In this document: positions 32,420-40,455 of the stretch, piece after piece
Layout of the letters: every line of letters starts with the position of its first letter
Position numbering within the stretch: the stretch's first letter is position 1
DNA from: Aliiroseovarius lamellibrachiae
GTDB taxonomy: Bacteria > Pseudomonadota > Alphaproteobacteria > Rhodobacterales > Rhodobacteraceae
Length of the DNA stretch: 64,000 bases
Direction: 5' to 3'
NCBI RefSeq assembly: GCF_018599245.1
Contig: NZ_JAHEVJ010000001.1
Span: 124,001 to 188,000 of the forward strand
Position numbers and translations under genes: made by a program
Notes under the pieces: model-generated
Database searches by the model: none
The model's input: the letters and a program-made list of their open reading frames with translations, nothing else
Told to the model about the DNA's origin: nothing

Positions 32420-33496
32420 ATGTCGAAATTCGAGACACAGTTGCGTGAAAGTCAAACTCAGGTTGCTGAGGCGCAATCCAAGATTTCAGAGCTGACCACG
32501 CGCATCGAAACCGCGCGATCCAAGATGAAATCCGGCGAGGATGTGTCGATCGACATTGAGAACGCATCCCTTGAGGATGTGCATGCGCACACCGAGGCGA
32601 TGAACGCAAATATCGCCGAGCTGATTATGGGTTTGGATGATGTGACCGCCGGATTTAGTTCGGAATTTGAACAGCTTAGATCAAAGACGGGCTGGGAAGC
32701 TTTCATCGGGATTTTTGCCAGCGGCAAGTCGGAAATGATGCGGCAGGAGCGTCTGCGCTCTGCGTCAATCGACGACAAATTGCAGGAATTGATCGGCCAG
32801 TCGGACACAATTGTGCGCCTTTTAGAAGGCCAGTTGAATGTGTTGAATGAGCAGAAAGACAAAGTGTCTGCCAATCTGGCAGAGACCTTGGACGACCGCG
32901 AATTTACCGTGAAAGATCTGGAGGCGATCCGGGCTGAGATATTGGCTTTGGACCCAAAGATCATCACGCTTGAGGGCAAAATCGCCAATGAAACCGATGC
33001 CGCGGCACGGACGGCGCTGGAGACGGAACTGGCGGATTTGAACAAGCAATACAATGGCTTGGTTCAAGATGAGCAGGTGAAGCTGGCGAAATCGCAAACG
33101 CTGGAACGCTATATTGAAAAGGGCAAAACCTGGGTGGATTCACTGCAAAACCAAGCGGCGACCCAGATGGTGCTGATCAACAAGTTGCAGACCGATACCA
33201 AGCAACGTGTGGTGCTGTATGATGCGCTGACCAAATCGTTGAAAACCGCGCAACAACAAGATGTTGCGCACCGGATCAATGAAATTGGTGTTGAAACCGA
33301 CAAAGAAGCACAGGCGGCGATGGCGGCGATTGGCACGGCGACGAACCAGCGCATGGCCGACATGATGGAAGCGCACGAAGACCAGATGGTGTTTGCGCGT
33401 GATGTGCTCGAAGCCAAGGCCAAAGCGGATGAGCGTTTTGCCCGCCGGTTTGCGGCGATTGTCGAGAAACATGATAAGAATGCGTATGGCTCGTAA
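32420..33496 (+). CDS. Long coiled-coil protein of unknown function
   Basis: A 358-residue protein with no signal peptide or membrane segment. Nearly the whole length is charged helix with heptad-like spacing: residues 1-80 (ETQLRESQTQVAEAQSKISELTTR), a short break with GWEAFIGIFASGKSEMM near residue 93, and long helices to the end. The overall look recalls TelA-type or phage-shock-like coiled coils, but I see no diagnostic motif. A GAGGAGG ribosome-binding site fixes the ATG at 32420. It is the first gene of a run that includes an AAA+ ATPase, and could be a scaffold or substrate for it. Confidence 0.7.
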   Translation: MSKFETQLRESQTQVAEAQSKISELTTRIETARSKMKSGEDVSIDIENASLEDVHAHTEAMNANIAELIMGLDDVTAGFSSEFEQLRSKTGWEAFIGIFASGKSEMMRQERLRSASIDDKLQELIGQSDTIVRLLEGQLNVLNEQKDKVSANLAETLDDREFTVKDLEAIRAEILALDPKIITLEGKIANETDAAARTALETELADLNKQYNGLVQDEQVKLAKSQTLERYIEKGKTWVDSLQNQAATQMVLINKLQTDTKQRVVLYDALTKSLKTAQQQDVAHRINEIGVETDKEAQAAMAAIGTATNQRMADMMEAHEDQMVFARDVLEAKAKADERFARRFAAIVEKHDKNAYGS

Positions 33497-33743
33497 ACGC
33501 AAAGCGCCGCTTATTGATGGCCACCGTGCCCTTGGTCTTCTTGGAATTTTCTCTGTGACGTCAATGCTTTGCGGTCTTGGGTTTGAGATCGAAATGTTGA
33601 TGCACATCGGCGCTTTGGGGGCGGTTGGCTGTGCATTGCTTTACGGCCAGTTGAACCCGAGCGGTCGCGGGTCACGCTACAATCCAGAGGCGGGATCATC
33701 AGATGGTGGGGCCGGGGATTGTGGGGGCGGTGATGGTGATTGA
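33486..33743 (+). CDS. Small membrane protein with Gly/Asp-rich tail
   Basis: An 85-residue protein starting MARKRKAPLIDGHRALGLLG. Two hydrophobic segments (about residues 14-30 and 32-52) follow a positively charged N-terminus, and the C-terminus is a Gly/Ser/Asp-rich tail. The start overlaps the end of the coiled-coil gene by 11 bases; an ATG two codons earlier is also possible. No family recognised. Translational coupling suggests it works with its neighbours and may tie the complex to the membrane. Confidence 0.6.
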   Translation: MARKRKAPLIDGHRALGLLGIFSVTSMLCGLGFEIEMLMHIGALGAVGCALLYGQLNPSGRGSRYNPEAGSSDGGAGDCGGGDGD

Positions 33744-33780
33744 CGCTGTTTTCACACCGACATTTGGTTGAAGGGGAACC

Positions 33781-34962
33781 ATGTCTGACGATATCAAATC
33801 CACCGAACAGGCCAGCGCGGGGTTTGCGCAGAAAACCCTTAGCAGCGACCATGCGGAGCTGACGGATACGGACATCACGCGCCGGTATTTTTCAAAGTTC
33901 GACGCCATCACCGGGCACCTCACACGGGTCGCGGGGCAGATGGAGGCCGAGGGGCGCATGGGTCGGGATGAGGTCACGGTGCTGGCCGGATACCTCGTTA
34001 AACTGGGGTTCACCTTTCGCGCGCTGGCGAACAAATACCATTTTTCTGGCGGCTCATACGGGCTGACGGCACAAACGCTGAGTTTTGATCGGGTTGAGAG
34101 CGGGTTTCCGGTCGCGGCTGAGCTTTTGCAGATGGCGTCGGATGCGGCCCAAGCCGAGGGGCGGCTGGCGCAGATGCCGTCGGTGGACAAGTTGAAATCA
34201 GAAATGGTCAGCCAGATTGTCGGCGATCTGACCAAGCCGGTGAAGCTGCAATACAGCCTGTCACAGCGGTTGTATTATGAGGAATTGGTGAAAGGTCAGC
34301 TCTTTTGGCCGCAAATGCACCCAGATGTGGTTTGGCGCCGCAATGAAGGTGAGGGGCGCCATGCGCGGCGTCATTATTTGCTGCATTGGGCGGTCTATGA
34401 CAGCGAGGTGAACCTGCCGACGATTTACCTGATGGAGGTCGAGGACACCGGGAAATACCCGCTGCCGAAAGATGATGAACGCTGGCCGCAAGTGGGCGCG
34501 CATCTGATGGCGCAATCGATGGCGGGGCTGAAGCTTGTGACCATTGCCACCGGGTTTGATCGTGACTTTGACAAGCTGCACCCTAAACGGCTGCGGCGGT
34601 TTCATATTGGCCCAATGTACAGCCATACGTTCACGCGCCAAACTGGCCCCTTGCGCGAGGTTCTGGACGAGGCGAAATCGCCCCCCGGCGAAGATTGGGC
34701 GCTGGCGTGGACGCTGGAAGAGCTGGAAAGCCGCGAGGTGAAAGAAGAGCGCACCGGATGGTTTGGATCGGTGGAACGCGAGGTGTTTCAGCTGGATCCT
34801 TTTGCCGGGCGTGGGGCTGATCTGGGGGCCACGCGGATGGAACGATCCATCATCCTGCCGGAACGTCCCTTTCAGGTGTTGGCGGAGAAGAACCCGCCGG
34901 GCTTTCGCGATGTGCGTAAATTTGTGGTGCGCCCGGGTGGGCAGGTGTTGAGTTATCGGTGA
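33781..34962 (+). CDS. Conserved-looking protein of unknown function in the AAA+ run
   Basis: A 393-residue soluble protein, no signal peptide. The N-terminal 130 residues are helical. The middle part has Trp/Tyr-rich blocks such as LFWPQMHPDVVWRR, HYLLHWAVYDSEVNLPTIYL (residues 198-217) and MEVEDTGKYPLP, and the C-terminal part has GWFGSVEREVFQLDPFAG. I do not recognise the family. It starts 37 bases after the small membrane protein and is followed by a copy of the dispersed gene-tail element and then by the AAA+ ATPase. Confidence 0.7.
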   Translation: MSDDIKSTEQASAGFAQKTLSSDHAELTDTDITRRYFSKFDAITGHLTRVAGQMEAEGRMGRDEVTVLAGYLVKLGFTFRALANKYHFSGGSYGLTAQTLSFDRVESGFPVAAELLQMASDAAQAEGRLAQMPSVDKLKSEMVSQIVGDLTKPVKLQYSLSQRLYYEELVKGQLFWPQMHPDVVWRRNEGEGRHARRHYLLHWAVYDSEVNLPTIYLMEVEDTGKYPLPKDDERWPQVGAHLMAQSMAGLKLVTIATGFDRDFDKLHPKRLRRFHIGPMYSHTFTRQTGPLREVLDEAKSPPGEDWALAWTLEELESREVKEERTGWFGSVEREVFQLDPFAGRGADLGATRMERSIILPERPFQVLAEKNPPGFRDVRKFVVRPGGQVLSYR

Positions 34963-34968
34963 GGAAGA

Positions 34969-35022
34969 GGGGCTCTGCCCCCGGCTAATCGCCTCCCCCG
35001 AGGTATTTTGAGCAAGAAAAAG
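34969..35022 (+). repeat. Dispersed gene-tail element, long form (copy 8)
   Basis: Hairpin 1 is GGGGC-TCT-GCCCC (34969-34981), hairpin 2 is GGC-TAATC-GCC (34983-34993), followed by TCCCCCGAGGTATTTTGAG and the CAAGAAAAAG tail. It starts 6 bases after the stop codon of the 393-residue protein and has the same orientation. Confidence 0.75.
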
Positions 35023-35054
35023 AGGCGCAGCCTTTTCGTTTGTAGGAGAGTTTT

Positions 35055-36992
35055 ATGTCGATGCCAGCTGATGTGATGGAGTTGCGGGAAGAGGAAATCC
35101 GGGCGCATTATGATGCTGCCGCCGGGTTGCTTGAGGGATTTGATCACACGCCGCGCATTGCCAAACCAAAAGTTGCGGCAGCGGCGCCTGAACGGTCGGC
35201 TGGAATTGGCACGCGGCGGCGATTTCGCTCCACCACACCGGGGTTGGTGACACGTTCGACCGCGCGGCCTGAAGGTGTGCATTTGGTGGCGCGTATTGAG
35301 GGTGCGGATGGGGATGACCCGTTGGTGTCCCCGCTTCAAGCCACGGTGTTGCACAGCTTGCGCCGGGCGGTTTCCATTGCCTTGGCGGTGGGCGAGGGGT
35401 TTTCTGAGGCGACGGAATTGGCGGCCCTGCGGCGCGCCAATTTGGAAGGTGCTTTGGGGGCGGATAAAGCGACAGTGTTTGCTGAGCTTTTGGCCGCTGA
35501 AAGCCTTGTGGTGCTTTATGTGTTTGGCAATGCAACCTCGTATCTTTTGGCCTCGCACGCGGGGGAGGTTTCTGTGGATGTGGGTGCTGTGGAAGAGGTG
35601 CTGACGGACAATGCCCCCTTGGCCCTGAATGGTGTATTATGGGAGCTGGATCAAGAGCTTGCCGCCTTTGCGACCAGCGAAGACAAGCTGGTGCCCACCG
35701 TTTTGGCCTATGCGGAACAGGTGATGGAAAAGGTGGCCTTGCGTGCGCAAACCGCGCCGCAGCTGGCCGCGTTCACGGGTGCAAATTACCGGGTTGAGGC
35801 GGATGAGCTGACGATTTCTGGCTTCACCCCGGCGCGCTCTGCCAAGGGCACGAAACTGACCATGTCGTTCAAGAAACCGAACGAAGTGGTGGGCAACCAT
35901 ATCGCCAAATACCAGTCGATGAAGCTGGCCAAAATGCTGATGGCCTATGACTTTGAACGCAAGCTGAACCCCTTTGCGGAACTTGGCGGGTTCATCTTTA
36001 CCTTCATGGGCGACGGGATGCCGGGCACCGGGAAAACCACTCTGATTCAGATGATGGCCGGGTTGATCAACGATTATTGCCAAGTGGCGGGCTATGCGTT
36101 TCGCTATCAGAACTTTGGCATCGACAATATCGACAGTTATCAAGGCAAATCCGGGCAGAATGCCAAGGCGTTCATCACGGGTGTGATGGACCAGAATGTG
36201 ATCGGCTTTGGCACGGTGGATGACATTGACCAGATCGCCGGGAAACGCGGGGATCGCCAATCCAGCGCGGGGCAACAAGAGGTCACGGCGGTGTTGATGG
36301 AGGCGTTTGCCGGGGCAAACACCGTCGTGCGCGGCAATTGCACCTTTGGGATGTTCTCAAACTATCCCGAGAATGTGGACGACGCCCTGCGCCAACGGGC
36401 GGGCGCACGGTTCTTGGTCGACGGGCCAAAGACGCGCGACGATTACATCGACATTCTGAACCTTTTGATGGGCAAAAACCACGCGATCCCGCTGGGCGAT
36501 CACGAAGCTTACGCCGCGCAAGAGATCAAGAAAGCGGTCGCCGCGAGCTATGATGGTTACAGCCGCCCGCAAGAACCGGGGCTGATTGCGGTGTTTGACC
36601 GGGTGCAGGATCAAATCGGCGATTTGGACACGATTGCCAAAATGGGCACGTACCTAAAAGCAATTCAAGAGGCCGACTCGCGCTTTACCGGCCGCGCGAT
36701 CAAGAACATCACCGACGCGGTGAAAGTCCGCGCGATGGATTTTGAACTGCCGGATGAGTGGATGGAAAACCCAGAGCTGTTCCTGTTCAAAGGGTATGAC
36801 GACAAGAAGGCGATGATTGCTGACCTGCGCGTGCCGATCACCGTGGAGATGGTCATTCAGGAAATCAACCGCTACGCCGACAGCGAATTCCGCTACGCCG
36901 ACAAATCGGATGAGGTGGCGATTGACAATATGGTGCGCGACTTTGGCCGGCAAGAAGAGGCCAAGCGGCGGTATTTGGAGGGGAAGGGGTGA
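35055..36992 (+). CDS. AAA+ family ATPase of unknown function
   Basis: A 645-residue protein. Residues 1-300 are a helical domain of unknown type without membrane segments. The AAA+ core follows: Walker A GMPGTGKT at residues 321-328, a Walker-B-like segment VDDID at 388-392, a sensor-1 region in CTFGMFSNYPENVDD, and arginine-finger candidates in ALRQRAGAR (residues 444-452). The last 190 residues are helical. The glutamate normally following Walker B is not obvious, so catalysis should be tested. An AGGAGAG ribosome-binding site precedes the ATG. It is the only clear enzyme in this gene run. Confidence 0.85.
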   Translation: MSMPADVMELREEEIRAHYDAAAGLLEGFDHTPRIAKPKVAAAAPERSAGIGTRRRFRSTTPGLVTRSTARPEGVHLVARIEGADGDDPLVSPLQATVLHSLRRAVSIALAVGEGFSEATELAALRRANLEGALGADKATVFAELLAAESLVVLYVFGNATSYLLASHAGEVSVDVGAVEEVLTDNAPLALNGVLWELDQELAAFATSEDKLVPTVLAYAEQVMEKVALRAQTAPQLAAFTGANYRVEADELTISGFTPARSAKGTKLTMSFKKPNEVVGNHIAKYQSMKLAKMLMAYDFERKLNPFAELGGFIFTFMGDGMPGTGKTTLIQMMAGLINDYCQVAGYAFRYQNFGIDNIDSYQGKSGQNAKAFITGVMDQNVIGFGTVDDIDQIAGKRGDRQSSAGQQEVTAVLMEAFAGANTVVRGNCTFGMFSNYPENVDDALRQRAGARFLVDGPKTRDDYIDILNLLMGKNHAIPLGDHEAYAAQEIKKAVAASYDGYSRPQEPGLIAVFDRVQDQIGDLDTIAKMGTYLKAIQEADSRFTGRAIKNITDAVKVRAMDFELPDEWMENPELFLFKGYDDKKAMIADLRVPITVEMVIQEINRYADSEFRYADKSDEVAIDNMVRDFGRQEEAKRRYLEGKG

Positions 36993-37209
36993 GCATCTTG
37001 CGATGTCCTTCTGGGCTGCAAGCCCGGTTCACGCCCGACCCCGCCCCCGTTTCGCCGGAGGCGAACCTGCGGTTCGACGGCGGGCGTGAAATTGCTGAGG
37101 TTATTACTGGGTGTATCGTTTTGGGTGAAGCTACACAGTCGCCAAGATTTACCCCGCCCTCGGGGTCGGGCGTGAACCTTGGTTTCAGTGTGCATTCGTG
37201 GGTGAAAGC
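36993..37209. other. Palindrome-dense spacer before the inserted membrane gene
   Basis: In 217 bases there are four perfect inverted repeats: GGGCT-GCA-AGCCC (37013-37025), TTCGCC-GGA-GGCGAA (37051-37065), GAACC-TGC-GGTTC (37063-37075), and an 18-bp pair GGTTCACGCCCGACCCCG at 37026-37043 with its complement at 37161-37178. None has a T run. The density suggests an insertion boundary or structured RNA. Confidence 0.6.
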
Positions 37210-38055
37210 ATGAGTGAAACAGAGAAAATCAAACGCCCGTTTTGGAAGAACCCAATCGTTTGGGCGATTATTGCAACAGGATTGGTTGCAGCGTTTGGTT
37301 TCTGGGCGGGTGGATTGGAAGCGTGTGGCGTTGACTTCTGGGGAAATCATAGTTGTTCAGGAACCAAGTGGTCTGCGTTTCTGCAAGCCTCTCCAAATGA
37401 AGTCGGGGATACGCTCGCTGGTTTTGCTGGGGCGCTCGCCTTTGTTTGGTTGATTGCAACGGTTGTGTTGCAGGGGCAGGAACTGCGCGAGCAGCGTCTA
37501 GAATTTGAGAAGATGGCTGATGCGCAAGTGGCGCAGCTAGCTGTTCTAGAAAAGCAAGGGCAGATATTTGAAGACGAGCAAAGGCAACGATCTGAAGCTC
37601 AGTTAGCTGAGGTGTATTCGGAAAAGCTTAAGTCATTAAGCTGGATGCTGGCAGATATGGGAAAGAAAGTTCTTTGGACCTTTTCAAGATCTGAGGAGGA
37701 GTATGAGAATGGAGATGCTTATCCTTTGTGCCTCTCACCTTTACGTGGAGAAGGGGAAGCGTTTGAGAGATGGCTTTCCCGTCACGCAGAATACCTAGAG
37801 GAATTCCCATCTTACCTTAATGATTGGTCGGCAAGGTCTGGCTTCCAAATTAACGCAATCATGGATGTTTCGATTGAGACCGTGGAACAGAAACTTCGTG
37901 AGTTGGTTCAATTAGAAGAGCGATTAGGGGCCGCACAAAAAGAGAGCTTGGAGCGCTTAAACATCAATCGTATTTTAACTGGCTTTGAACGTCTCAAAAA
38001 AATAGATGATATTTGGCGTGATGATGGAGAGATACGTAATGAAACGCCTCATTAA
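37210..38055 (+). CDS. Two-helix membrane protein with coiled coil, AbiC-like layout (putative defence gene)
   Basis: A 281-residue protein. Hydrophobic segments at about residues 13-33 and 58-80 are followed by a coiled coil beginning LQGQELREQRLEFEKMADAQVAQ (residues 81-103). This layout, including the Gly-rich second helix running into QxxEL, resembles putative AbiC-type phage abortive-infection membrane proteins; the match is by pattern only. Codon use and composition differ from the flanking genes (about 45 percent G+C in the sampled 60 bases from 37561). It is preceded by palindromes and its last codons overlap the start of the next gene. Confidence 0.6.
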   Translation: MSETEKIKRPFWKNPIVWAIIATGLVAAFGFWAGGLEACGVDFWGNHSCSGTKWSAFLQASPNEVGDTLAGFAGALAFVWLIATVVLQGQELREQRLEFEKMADAQVAQLAVLEKQGQIFEDEQRQRSEAQLAEVYSEKLKSLSWMLADMGKKVLWTFSRSEEEYENGDAYPLCLSPLRGEGEAFERWLSRHAEYLEEFPSYLNDWSARSGFQINAIMDVSIETVEQKLRELVQLEERLGAAQKESLERLNINRILTGFERLKKIDDIWRDDGEIRNETPH

Positions 38056-39439
38056 ACGCGGACTGATGTTTGGGAATATGGTGCGGGTGGACAGTCCGGC
38101 GCTGATCACGCGCTACAACCGCGCGCTTATGAAACTGGCTGGGCGGACCACCGAACTAACGGAATTTCACATCGACATTTCCGGCTTCTCTCCTGAGATT
38201 GGCGAGGCGTTTGGCGATGAGGCTTACCTTAATCCCGGTGGCTGTAATCGGCAGTTTATCATCCTCACCGTGGATCAGAAAAAGGCGCCGTTGTTGAACG
38301 CGAGCTTTTCGACCTCGCGGGGCATCCTCAAACAATTCATGGCTGACAATGAAGCAAAGCTTTTTGCGCTGACGGCCCATGACGCCATCGCGGGCGAGCT
38401 GGAAAACTCGGTTTATAGCATCACTAGCCTGCGCGACCTGCTGGCCATTCGCAAAATCACGGTGGCGGCTGACACCACCCAAAGTCACGTCGCCAATGCG
38501 CGCAAATTGGCCGAGAAAATTGAGCATTTTCAAACCGGTGAGCGCGCTTGGTATGATGATGCGTTGATTGATGAGATGATTGATCTGGCGCGTGAAACCG
38601 GTGATGTGACCCGCGTGCCGGTGGACCTTGGCGCGCCTACCTATGAGCAGGGCAATTTCTGGACCGCGCATTTCGGCGGGCTTTATGTGTTTCGCGATGT
38701 GGACGACCCGGCGGTGATTGCTTTGGGCGAGGATACGGCCCTGAAAGATGCGCCCTTTGATCGGCGTTATGGGCCGGAGGACGTAAACGGGATCGCGTCC
38801 TTCCTAAAGAAAAACGATCTGGTTGAACCGGTGATCAAGGCGCGCGGCGTGGATGGTGCGCGGATCCTGCGGCAGAAGATGCAGTTTATGTTGGTCGAGG
38901 CGGCGACCAGTTTGGGCATGGATCTCGGTGACATGGGGGATCGCGCGTTGCGCCGCGTGGCGACCCGGTTGGGGGATCGTTTGCCGATGGAATTCCAAGG
39001 GCTGGCGGCGATGGTGCGCTGGGCCGAGGCAGGGGGCAAATGGCCCAAGATCAACAGCCGTCATCCGGCCTATTTCTACACCCTGCGTGCGCGGCCTGAT
39101 CACCCGGATCGGGACTTGATCAATCAGCTGTTGTCGGAACTGGCACCGATGGACGTGCGCCAGCTGTTTATCTGTCACAAACAAGCGTTTTATGATGCAT
39201 ATGCCACATGGCCCGATGAAAAACGGGAATATGTGGCGGAGTTCCTGCATCGTGATTATATGGCAAATAAGGCCGGTGCGCGGGCGCGGTTGTTTGGTGG
39301 GGATGAGGGGGATAAGCCGCCCCCCTCGCGGCGTCCTGCGCGAAACAACCCCTGGGTGAGGCCCGCAAAACAGGCCAAACAGCGCGATGATCTGATCGAT
39401 GTGGTTGGACCATGGGGCGCTGTGACAAGGAGGCGATGA
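38039..39439 (+). CDS. DUF6638-like protein of the AAA+ run
   Basis: A 466-residue soluble protein starting MKRLIKRGLMFGNMVRVDSP. The N-terminal half includes FHIDISGFSPEIGEAFGDEAYLNPGG (residues 40-65), and the C-terminal tail is a basic, Pro-rich region (PPPSRRPARNNPWVRP) likely disordered. I associate it with DUF6638, a roseobacter family of unknown role, with moderate certainty. GGAGAG lies 8 bases before the ATG at 38039. That start codon lies inside the last 17 bases of the inserted membrane gene. Confidence 0.7.
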   Translation: MKRLIKRGLMFGNMVRVDSPALITRYNRALMKLAGRTTELTEFHIDISGFSPEIGEAFGDEAYLNPGGCNRQFIILTVDQKKAPLLNASFSTSRGILKQFMADNEAKLFALTAHDAIAGELENSVYSITSLRDLLAIRKITVAADTTQSHVANARKLAEKIEHFQTGERAWYDDALIDEMIDLARETGDVTRVPVDLGAPTYEQGNFWTAHFGGLYVFRDVDDPAVIALGEDTALKDAPFDRRYGPEDVNGIASFLKKNDLVEPVIKARGVDGARILRQKMQFMLVEAATSLGMDLGDMGDRALRRVATRLGDRLPMEFQGLAAMVRWAEAGGKWPKINSRHPAYFYTLRARPDHPDRDLINQLLSELAPMDVRQLFICHKQAFYDAYATWPDEKREYVAEFLHRDYMANKAGARARLFGGDEGDKPPPSRRPARNNPWVRPAKQAKQRDDLIDVVGPWGAVTRRR

Positions 39440-39714
39440 TGGGATTTGTTCGGTTTGTCTTTTTCGGCTATCTGGGCCTGACGGTGATCTATTGGCTGAT
39501 CAACATCTATTCACGATCCGTACGACTGGAGCGGCTGGAAAATGAATGGGCCGAGGGGCATCCCGATGACGAGGGCAGCGATGCGCGTCAATCGTTTTTG
39601 GATGATGGCATGGCCGCCTATCACGCATCATTTCGCCCCAAGCTGATTGGGCTTGTATATATCATTCCGACCATTTTGGTCATCGTCGCACTGGTTGTGC
39701 GCAATTCGAACTGA
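39439..39714 (+). CDS. Small two-helix membrane protein
   Basis: A 91-residue protein with a membrane helix at each end: GFVRFVFFGYLGLTVIYWLI (residues 2-21) and LIGLVYIIPTILVIVALVV (residues 69-87), joined by an acidic loop. AAGGAGG lies 5 bases before the ATG at 39439; an ATG one codon earlier is closer to that site. The start overlaps the stop of the DUF6638-like gene. No family recognised. It may be a membrane partner of the AAA+ run. Confidence 0.65.
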   Translation: MGFVRFVFFGYLGLTVIYWLINIYSRSVRLERLENEWAEGHPDDEGSDARQSFLDDGMAAYHASFRPKLIGLVYIIPTILVIVALVVRNSN

Positions 39715-39721
39715 GGGACTT

Positions 39722-40390
39722 ATGGATACTGTCAAACGGGTGTTCCGCATCATTATTTTCGTCATCTTGGCGTTGTTCTTTTCCTATGTGTTGCCGCAGC
39801 ATGACGTGGTGCGTGTAACCTCGACCGAGATCATTCGGCAGGATTTTTCATCCGTGAACCGGATCTTTTATGCGCAGGCGGACAGCGGGAATGTGGAAAA
39901 CCCAACCCGCGATATTCGTCTGATCAATACCGTAAAACGCAAGACGTTCCTGTTGGGGTTCATCCCGCGTGAGGCGGAAAAAGTGATGGTGTATCGCAAT
40001 GAGGATACAGGTTGGATCTGGCCGCCATACTTCAAGTTCGACAGCTCGGATTTACAGGCGCAAGCGGCGTCCATTGCGTCCAAAGGTGATGGCAACAACT
40101 GGGCGATTATGACCCATTATGGCTGGCGAAACCGGTTCTTTACGATCTTTCCCAACGCGGTGGGGCTGAAACCGATTGATGGCCCGGATGTGAAAATCAT
40201 CCCGTGGTTCAACATCTTTTTCTTTGCGTTCCTGATCATCGGGTGGCTGTTTTTGCGGGCGTTGTGGCGCCAGTTCCGCCAGCGTTCGATTGACCCGGTG
40301 ATTGAGGATGCGTCAGAGACGTGGGAGCTGTTGGATGACAAGGCGGATGAGGCCAAAGGACGCTTCATGGGGTGGTTCAAACGCAAATAA
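39722..40390 (+). CDS. DUF1523 membrane protein
   Basis: A 222-residue protein of the DUF1523 family, function unknown. A first membrane helix (VFRIIIFVILALFFSYVLP, residues 7-25) is followed by the conserved PQHDVVRVTSTEI, a periplasmic domain with VYRNEDTGWIWPPYFKFDS and MTHYGWRNRFFTIFPN, and a second helix at about residues 160-180 after IIPWFNI. The C-terminus is cytoplasmic and charged. It starts 7 bases after its neighbour's stop, and a strong terminator closes the run. Confidence 0.85.
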   Translation: MDTVKRVFRIIIFVILALFFSYVLPQHDVVRVTSTEIIRQDFSSVNRIFYAQADSGNVENPTRDIRLINTVKRKTFLLGFIPREAEKVMVYRNEDTGWIWPPYFKFDSSDLQAQAASIASKGDGNNWAIMTHYGWRNRFFTIFPNAVGLKPIDGPDVKIIPWFNIFFFAFLIIGWLFLRALWRQFRQRSIDPVIEDASETWELLDDKADEAKGRFMGWFKRK

Positions 40391-40413: not shown

Positions 40414-40455
40414 AACAACGCCGCGCTGTTGAGGCGCGGCGTTGTTTGTTTTTTT
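40414..40455 (+). terminator. Strong intrinsic terminator closing the AAA+ gene run
   Basis: AACAACGCCGCGC and GCGCGGCGTTGTT form a perfect 13-bp stem around TGTTGAG, followed by TTGTTTTTTTT. It lies 23 bases after the DUF1523 stop codon. Confidence 0.9.

Follow-up and report, generated by a model that had tools for sequence, protein, structure and literature searches.

A run of eight genes was analysed in a stretch of 64,000 nucleotides of the Aliiroseovarius lamellibrachiae genome (the window; positions 124,001 to 188,000 of contig NZ_JAHEVJ010000001.1, assembly GCF_018599245.1). Four of the genes form a module whose order is conserved across Alpha- and Gammaproteobacteria, and an exchangeable gene slot lies at one specific junction of this module, between the genes for an AAA+ ATPase and a DUF6638 protein. 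Coordinates are window positions, the genes are called g1 to g8, and compared loci carry numbers with the prefix L. All eight genes and the other features of the run are on the plus strand. The core gene g1 (32420-33496) encodes a 358-residue cytoplasmic coiled-coil protein. It is followed by g2 (33486-33743), a small protein with two hydrophobic transmembrane (TM) segments that lies in the g1/g3 interval (slot A) and is not part of the core, and by g3 (33781-34962), a core protein of 393 residues with an N-terminal helical bundle and a C-terminal antiparallel sheet domain. The g4 gene (35055-36992) encodes the classical-type AAA+ ATPase (645 residues; PF00004, E 2e-11), with an N-terminal region of about 270 residues without known family. 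The AAA+/DUF6638 junction (slot B) begins with an apparently non-coding part (36993-37209) in which an inverted-repeat-like sequence was read, and continues with g5 (37210-38055), the cargo gene of the window. The 281-residue g5 protein has a two-TM N-terminal anchor, a coiled coil and an exchangeable C-terminal cytosolic domain. The right border of slot B is g6, the DUF6638 core gene (38039-39439; PF20343, E 1.7e-202), whose start is overlapped by g5 by 17 bases. It is joined through an ATGA overlap to g7 (39436-39714), a 92-residue protein with two hydrophobic segments, and g7 and the DUF1523 membrane protein g8 (39722-40390; PF07509, E 1e-59) make up the membrane module. By hydropathy, g2, g5, g7 and g8 have two TM segments each, and g1, g3 and g6 have none. 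The operon ends at an intrinsic terminator (40414-40453) made up of a 14-pair stem (40414-40446) and a T run; the stem is followed by TGTTTTTTTG.

A preliminary description of this DNA had listed seven genes with short gaps or overlaps. All seven were present on the plus strand at the positions given there, and the terminator was indeed the strongest in the region, but g5 had been overlooked between the AAA+ and DUF6638 genes, which are 1046 bp apart. The three listed membrane proteins (g2, g7 and g8) were borne out by hydropathy, with g5 as a fourth. Pfam recognised only the AAA domain, DUF6638 and DUF1523 among the window genes; NCBIfam, PADLOC and PHROGs added only weak, AAA-domain or coiled-coil matches. 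The ATPase is the sole gene of known fold class, and no system library recognised the gene set, in agreement with the earlier description.

The preliminary description had named a lack of co-conservation in other genomes as a result that would refute it. Its proposal passed this test, as the genes are co-conserved: the order recurs in about 110 loci of many genera, far beyond chance. Nearly all sufficiently long Rhodobacteraceae loci read coil, g3, AAA+, slot B, DUF6638, TM protein and DUF1523. The exceptions were L144, L145 and L157; L144, in which neither DUF6638 nor any later gene lies within 10 kb, and L145, with the AAA+ gene alone, were set aside after inspection. Of 100 genera sampled in the family, 45 had the AAA+ protein (43 of the 91 genomes rated good), as against two genomes, both Rhodobacteraceae, among 142 drawn from the class as a whole; these surveys used a single query sequence and a strict limit of E 1e-10. 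A phylum-wide search with the DUF6638 model reached distant loci in a different alphaproteobacterial family (f140, genus g252). Their coil, g3, AAA+ and DUF6638 genes stand in the same order, with protein identities of about 43, 31, 54 and 32% identity. The same core was found among plasmid records in Sinorhizobium meliloti pSymB, Shinella, Vibrio parahaemolyticus and V. vulnificus, and profile searches confirmed all four proteins there with E from 3.5e-52 (g3, Shinella) to 6e-251 (AAA+, S. meliloti). Core matches among plasmids were few and lay on very large rhizobial and Vibrio replicons. Rhodobacteraceae, rhizobia and Vibrio share the order coil, g3, AAA+ and DUF6638, with profile E values under 1e-51. 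Because this order and all four proteins are kept in distant alphaproteobacteria, rhizobia and Vibrio, the four genes are the minimal unit. In Halomonas (L114, L119 and L188), the whole six-gene operon of the Rhodobacteraceae type was found without cargo; its AAA+ identity of about 75% probably reflects lateral transfer between classes. The AAA+ core had no match in phage records or IMG/VR, and the core as a phage-borne system was rejected on this result.

The junctions were compared in a survey of 119 loci, with gaps taken from tblastn ends. The AAA+/DUF6638 gap had a median of 683 bp and a maximum of 2382 bp and exceeded 300 bp in 84% of the loci. The g6-g7 and g7-g8 junctions downstream never exceeded 177 bp and 36 bp, respectively; gaps above 300 bp were found at g1-g3 in 30% and at g3-AAA+ in 9%. 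Slot B held 114 plus-strand open reading frames (ORFs) of at least 80 residues in 61 clusters, most seen once; the ORFs were picked mechanically (longest ORF, plus strand favoured), and some with high guanine-plus-cytosine (GC) content are probably spurious. Cargo is usually one or two co-directional genes and is exchanged between close relatives. For cargo of at least 140 residues, GC was below that of the flanking core genes in 50 of 53 cases, by a mean of -11.7 points (Wilcoxon p 5e-10), and 53 of 56 such ORFs were co-directional, with three opposed, under picking that favoured this strand. Where the slot was longer than 200 bp (100 loci), 81 loci had an ORF of at least 60 residues that overlapped the AAA+ stop or the DUF6638 start by 4 bases; the count had no random-ORF control, so some overlaps are chance. 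In a set of 38 larger low-GC cargo genes, 22 share an ATGA overlap with the DUF6638 start, 14 with the AAA+ stop and nine with both; the count at the cargo start is less certain, as the longest ORF was taken. At some cargo-free loci, AAA+ and DUF6638 are themselves joined by an ATGA overlap. The cargo of L079 and L099 is 87% identical, vs 79% for AAA+ and 57% for DUF6638, a pattern that points to lateral transfer. As for marks of a mobile defence island, no integrase was recognised among the scanned slot-B cargo, and attachment (att) sites were not searched for; one S. meliloti locus carries an insertion sequence (IS) element.

Two other intervals also vary. Slot A is a second, smaller exchange site for mostly TM proteins of 60-180 residues, some of which end in a Gly/Asp/Cys-rich tail (...SDGGAGDCGGGDGD in the window; also L129, L042 and L091). 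The g3/AAA+ interval holds a lipoprotein-like gene of about 110-150 residues in L069, L083, L086, L108 and L118.

Pfam and PADLOC were run on 52 cargo proteins of at least 140 residues and on single proteins. The recognisable cargo was mostly of anti-phage or toxin-antitoxin type. Mrr restriction enzymes with an N-terminal domain were found in L044 and L111 (Mrr_cat, 3e-33), an HNH nuclease in L052, an AbiJ N-terminal domain in L059 (AbiJ_NTD4, 4e-10), DUF2971 in L107 and L133, DUF3825 in L036, HATPase-like proteins in L079 and L099, and one HEPN protein among the cargo. PADLOC assigned cargo to mREase_IV (type IV restriction), PDC-S02 (1e-31), PDC-S31 (1e-23) and AbiP (6e-9). Slot B of L087 holds a toxin-antitoxin-like pair of DUF433 and a PIN-like protein (PIN_10, 1e-15). 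In distant loci of the rhizobial type, the same position is taken by a DUF559 nuclease (L185) and by an endonuclease-domain protein (S. meliloti). One of the 52 proteins matched putAbiC (PF16872, E 1.7e-18); by sequence reading, it is the L149 member of the g5 family. A putAbiC search across the class gave zero matches, and the control genomes likewise gave zero. Relatives of the HATPase-like cargo were found on plasmids, five of six typed as conjugative; g5 was not found on plasmids.

The window cargo was compared with that of a sister genome (L078). The GC content of g5 is 47%, vs 58% in its neighbours. The two operons have about 90% DNA identity outside two replaced stretches. The first is slot A (33501-33800; 37-39% identity), where L078 has an unrelated 65-residue TM protein instead of g2, and the second is the C-terminal half of g5 (37551-38000; 36-50%). 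The anchor half of g5 remains at 87-90%. At the protein level, identity is 95% in the anchor and 27% in the C-terminal part; whole-protein identities are 53% for g5, 96% for AAA+ and 93% for DUF6638. Across 15 loci of the g5 anchor family, mean identity was 44% in the N-terminal part and 18% in the C-terminal part, and the motif PNEVGDTLAGFAGxLAFxWLIxTVxLQxxELxxQR was constant. These comparisons show domain swapping on a constant membrane anchor in g5. In 100 genomes, all three strong matches to the g5 family lay in the slot, and three weak partial ones lay in genomes without a detected AAA+ gene. Five viral contigs of IMG/VR carry anchor-like proteins, none with the AAA+ core. The non-coding stretch 36993-37209 dips to 77% identity between the two genomes; it contains an inverted GTTCACGCCCGAC-like sequence before g5, possibly a repeat element used in exchange.

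Such variety could arise at a permissive hotspot. The operon would then serve housekeeping or a stress response in its own right, and its junction would merely tolerate insertions, offering defence genes a safe and expressed place to land with no functional contact. This is the main rival explanation, and it accounts for the variety of the cargo equally well. The cargo families are mutually unrelated and low in GC, some are known to act alone, the core occurs without cargo in Vibrio, Halomonas and some Rhodobacteraceae, and it was not found in phage and viral collections. However, the adjacent g6-g7 and g7-g8 junctions never take insertions, exact ATGA coupling is frequent, strong g5-family matches lay only in the slot in the 100-genome sample, and the g5 anchor is kept while its C-terminal domain is swapped. 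All that disfavours a hotspot is that insertion is specific to one junction, that the cargo is translationally coupled and that the g5 family is bound to the slot; a hotspot is regarded as a real possibility, though clearly short of even.

The core proteins were examined individually. The most conserved partner is g1, whose identity is 69-80% across most Rhodobacteraceae and falls to 43% in distant alphaproteobacteria, with a hidden Markov model (HMM) E of 2e-74 in Vibrio. No Pfam family matched g1 above cut-off, and its only PADLOC similarity was to the LmuB coiled coil (E 5e-5). An assignment to TelA (PF05816; TelA/Ter stress systems) was rejected, with an hhalign probability of 0.4%. A genuine TelA gene, unrelated to g1, lies elsewhere in the same genome (G000:C1:260739-261734; L158) and was the sole match of the TelA model in that genome. 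For g3, no match was found in Pfam, NCBIfam or PADLOC (HMM E 2e-61 in Vibrio). AlphaFold2 models had a predicted local distance difference test (pLDDT) score of 90.8 for g3 and 83.5 for DUF6638. Neither fold had a PDB match at Foldseek E<=0.001, and the best VIA Z scores, 4.9 for g3 and 4.7 for DUF6638, are in the noise range and neither name nor exclude a family. Apart from the LmuB similarity, PADLOC models matched no defence system in g1, g3, g6, g7 or g8.

The g4 protein has the Walker A, Walker B, sensor 1 and arginine-finger regions of a classical-type AAA+ ATPase, and PF00004 was above cut-off. Walker A (GDGxPGTGKTT, 319-329), the pore-loop-like YQGKS (362-366), the sensor N436 and the arginines of ALRQR (444-448) are invariant in 15 aligned sequences and conserved in Vibrio and Sinorhizobium. 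In Walker B (DDID, 389-392), Glu is replaced by Asp in all aligned sequences and also in Vibrio and Sinorhizobium, and the motif is DDVD in rhizobia. The closest solved AAA domain is the ATPase domain of an i-AAA protease (5ubv, E 1e-3).

The membrane module is variable. It consists of the TM protein and DUF1523 in Rhodobacteraceae and of DUF2333 in rhizobial-type loci, and no such gene is annotated alongside the Vibrio core. The g7-DUF1523 pair also occurs in other Rhodobacteraceae genomes without the AAA+ core. A three-TM slot-B protein (cluster C0, 21 loci) accompanies this pair even without AAA+. Because the pair occurs with C0 alone in genera without the AAA+ core, it is a separate module that joined the core. 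C0 is a genuine partner of the pair and probably the ancestral slot occupant in many lineages. Some of the C0-TM-DUF1523 sets without the core (L206, L207, L209, L211 and others) lie near genes for DmsABC-type-like reductase subunits.

The preliminary description had proposed an envelope-associated remodelling machine from the mix of an ATPase, a coiled-coil scaffold and three membrane proteins. In such a machine, the AAA+ protein and its scaffold would act on membrane proteins, and the slots would hold fast-evolving small membrane subunits. This is compatible with the three membrane proteins listed earlier and the fourth, g5, with C0 as a partner of g7-DUF1523, with the many small TM proteins in slots A and B, and with the lipoprotein-like genes in some g3/g4 intervals. 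However, soluble nucleases, AbiJ, PIN/DUF433, DUF2971 and HATPase-like cargo are unlike structural envelope subunits, and the versions in rhizobia and Vibrio lack the TM-DUF1523 module. The coil, g3 and DUF6638 are without a predicted membrane segment, and the TM/DUF1523 pair is separable. Nothing that was found is specific to envelope remodelling. An envelope machine is considered improbable.

The preferred reading is that the core is an AAA+ module not described before, and that its operon acquires exchangeable effectors of defence type; with control of the cargo by the core included, this reading is held to be evenly poised. We infer that the AAA+ protein controls the cargo and that the whole is an immune platform. 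The AAA+ protein would be a hexameric protein-remodelling or threading ATPase whose partners keep it close to the membrane. The cargo protein would be a variable effector, or effector and sensor, that is assembled, held inactive or activated by this machine, and phage or another stress perturbing the cell may trigger its activation. Cargo could be replaced by homologous recombination via the conserved AAA+ and DUF6638 flanks and, for g5, also via the conserved anchor itself. That the operon is a modular immune machine, in which one AAA+ core drives interchangeable effectors plugged in at the translationally coupled junction or by a C-terminal swap on the anchor, is proposed tentatively and is rather doubtful.

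Several observations weigh against defence-type effectors under AAA+ control. No more than roughly one in four of the 52 larger cargo proteins has a recognisable domain, which leaves the defence label resting on a minority; the remaining larger cargo and most cargo of 80-130 residues are small TM proteins or unannotated. The window g5 itself had no Pfam or PADLOC match at E<=0.01. Cargo types such as Mrr and the HATPase-like proteins occur elsewhere and presumably act alone. Some loci are without cargo, and the Vibrio core junction is only 48 bp. The Glu-to-Asp change in Walker B could mean weak hydrolysis.

The operon was also compared with known systems. Restriction-modification operons with anti-phage genes inside them are known (PrrC in hsd loci), and BREX loci also contain embedded defence genes. 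The arrangement is alike in that a conserved multi-gene operon carries an accessory effector gene inside; however, the core genes of the window have no PADLOC or Pfam match to either system, and the variety of cargo is far wider here. Defence ATPases of the IetAS/TRIP13 type resemble g4 as AAA+ proteins, with weak PADLOC matches to the AAA domain only (E 7e-4 to 1e-3), but the window operon has no S8 protease, HORMA or nucleotide cyclase partner and the N-terminal region of g4 differs. IetAS was rejected on its weak partial AAA match (E 1e-3) and the absence of an S8 protease among the eight window genes. With i-AAA/FtsH and CDC48, only the AAA domain of g4 aligns (5ubv as above; CDC48 model, E 6e-4), and g4 differs by its Walker B Asp. 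The g5 family resembles AbiC proteins in its N-terminal two-TM anchor. One cargo protein matched putAbiC, but the window g5 matched neither putAbiC nor any PADLOC model, and an AbiC-type (PF16872) assignment of g5 was rejected. The literature search found no paper on DUF6638 or putAbiC, and broader searches gave nothing on point; the four papers naming DUF1523 and the one naming DUF2333 appear, by title and abstract, not to concern this operon. No system library or paper was found that describes the core or the slot.

In either case, the four-gene core of roseobacters, rhizobia and vibrios is an unstudied AAA+ module, two proteins of which match no solved structure. If the cargo is a passenger, the junction would still be a hotspot of high activity within a transcription unit, a setting that differs from that of hotspots beside tRNAs or in mobile elements, and it would raise the question why the AAA+/DUF6638 junction accepts genes and its neighbours do not. 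Effector genes embedded in operons are already precedented in restriction-modification and BREX loci; if the AAA+ core drives its effectors, the operon would represent a new class. With the cargo under the control of the core, it would be an undescribed platform for swapping immune effectors without rebuilding the sensor or engine, and the AAA+/DUF6638 slot would be a catalogue of uncharacterised anti-phage candidates.

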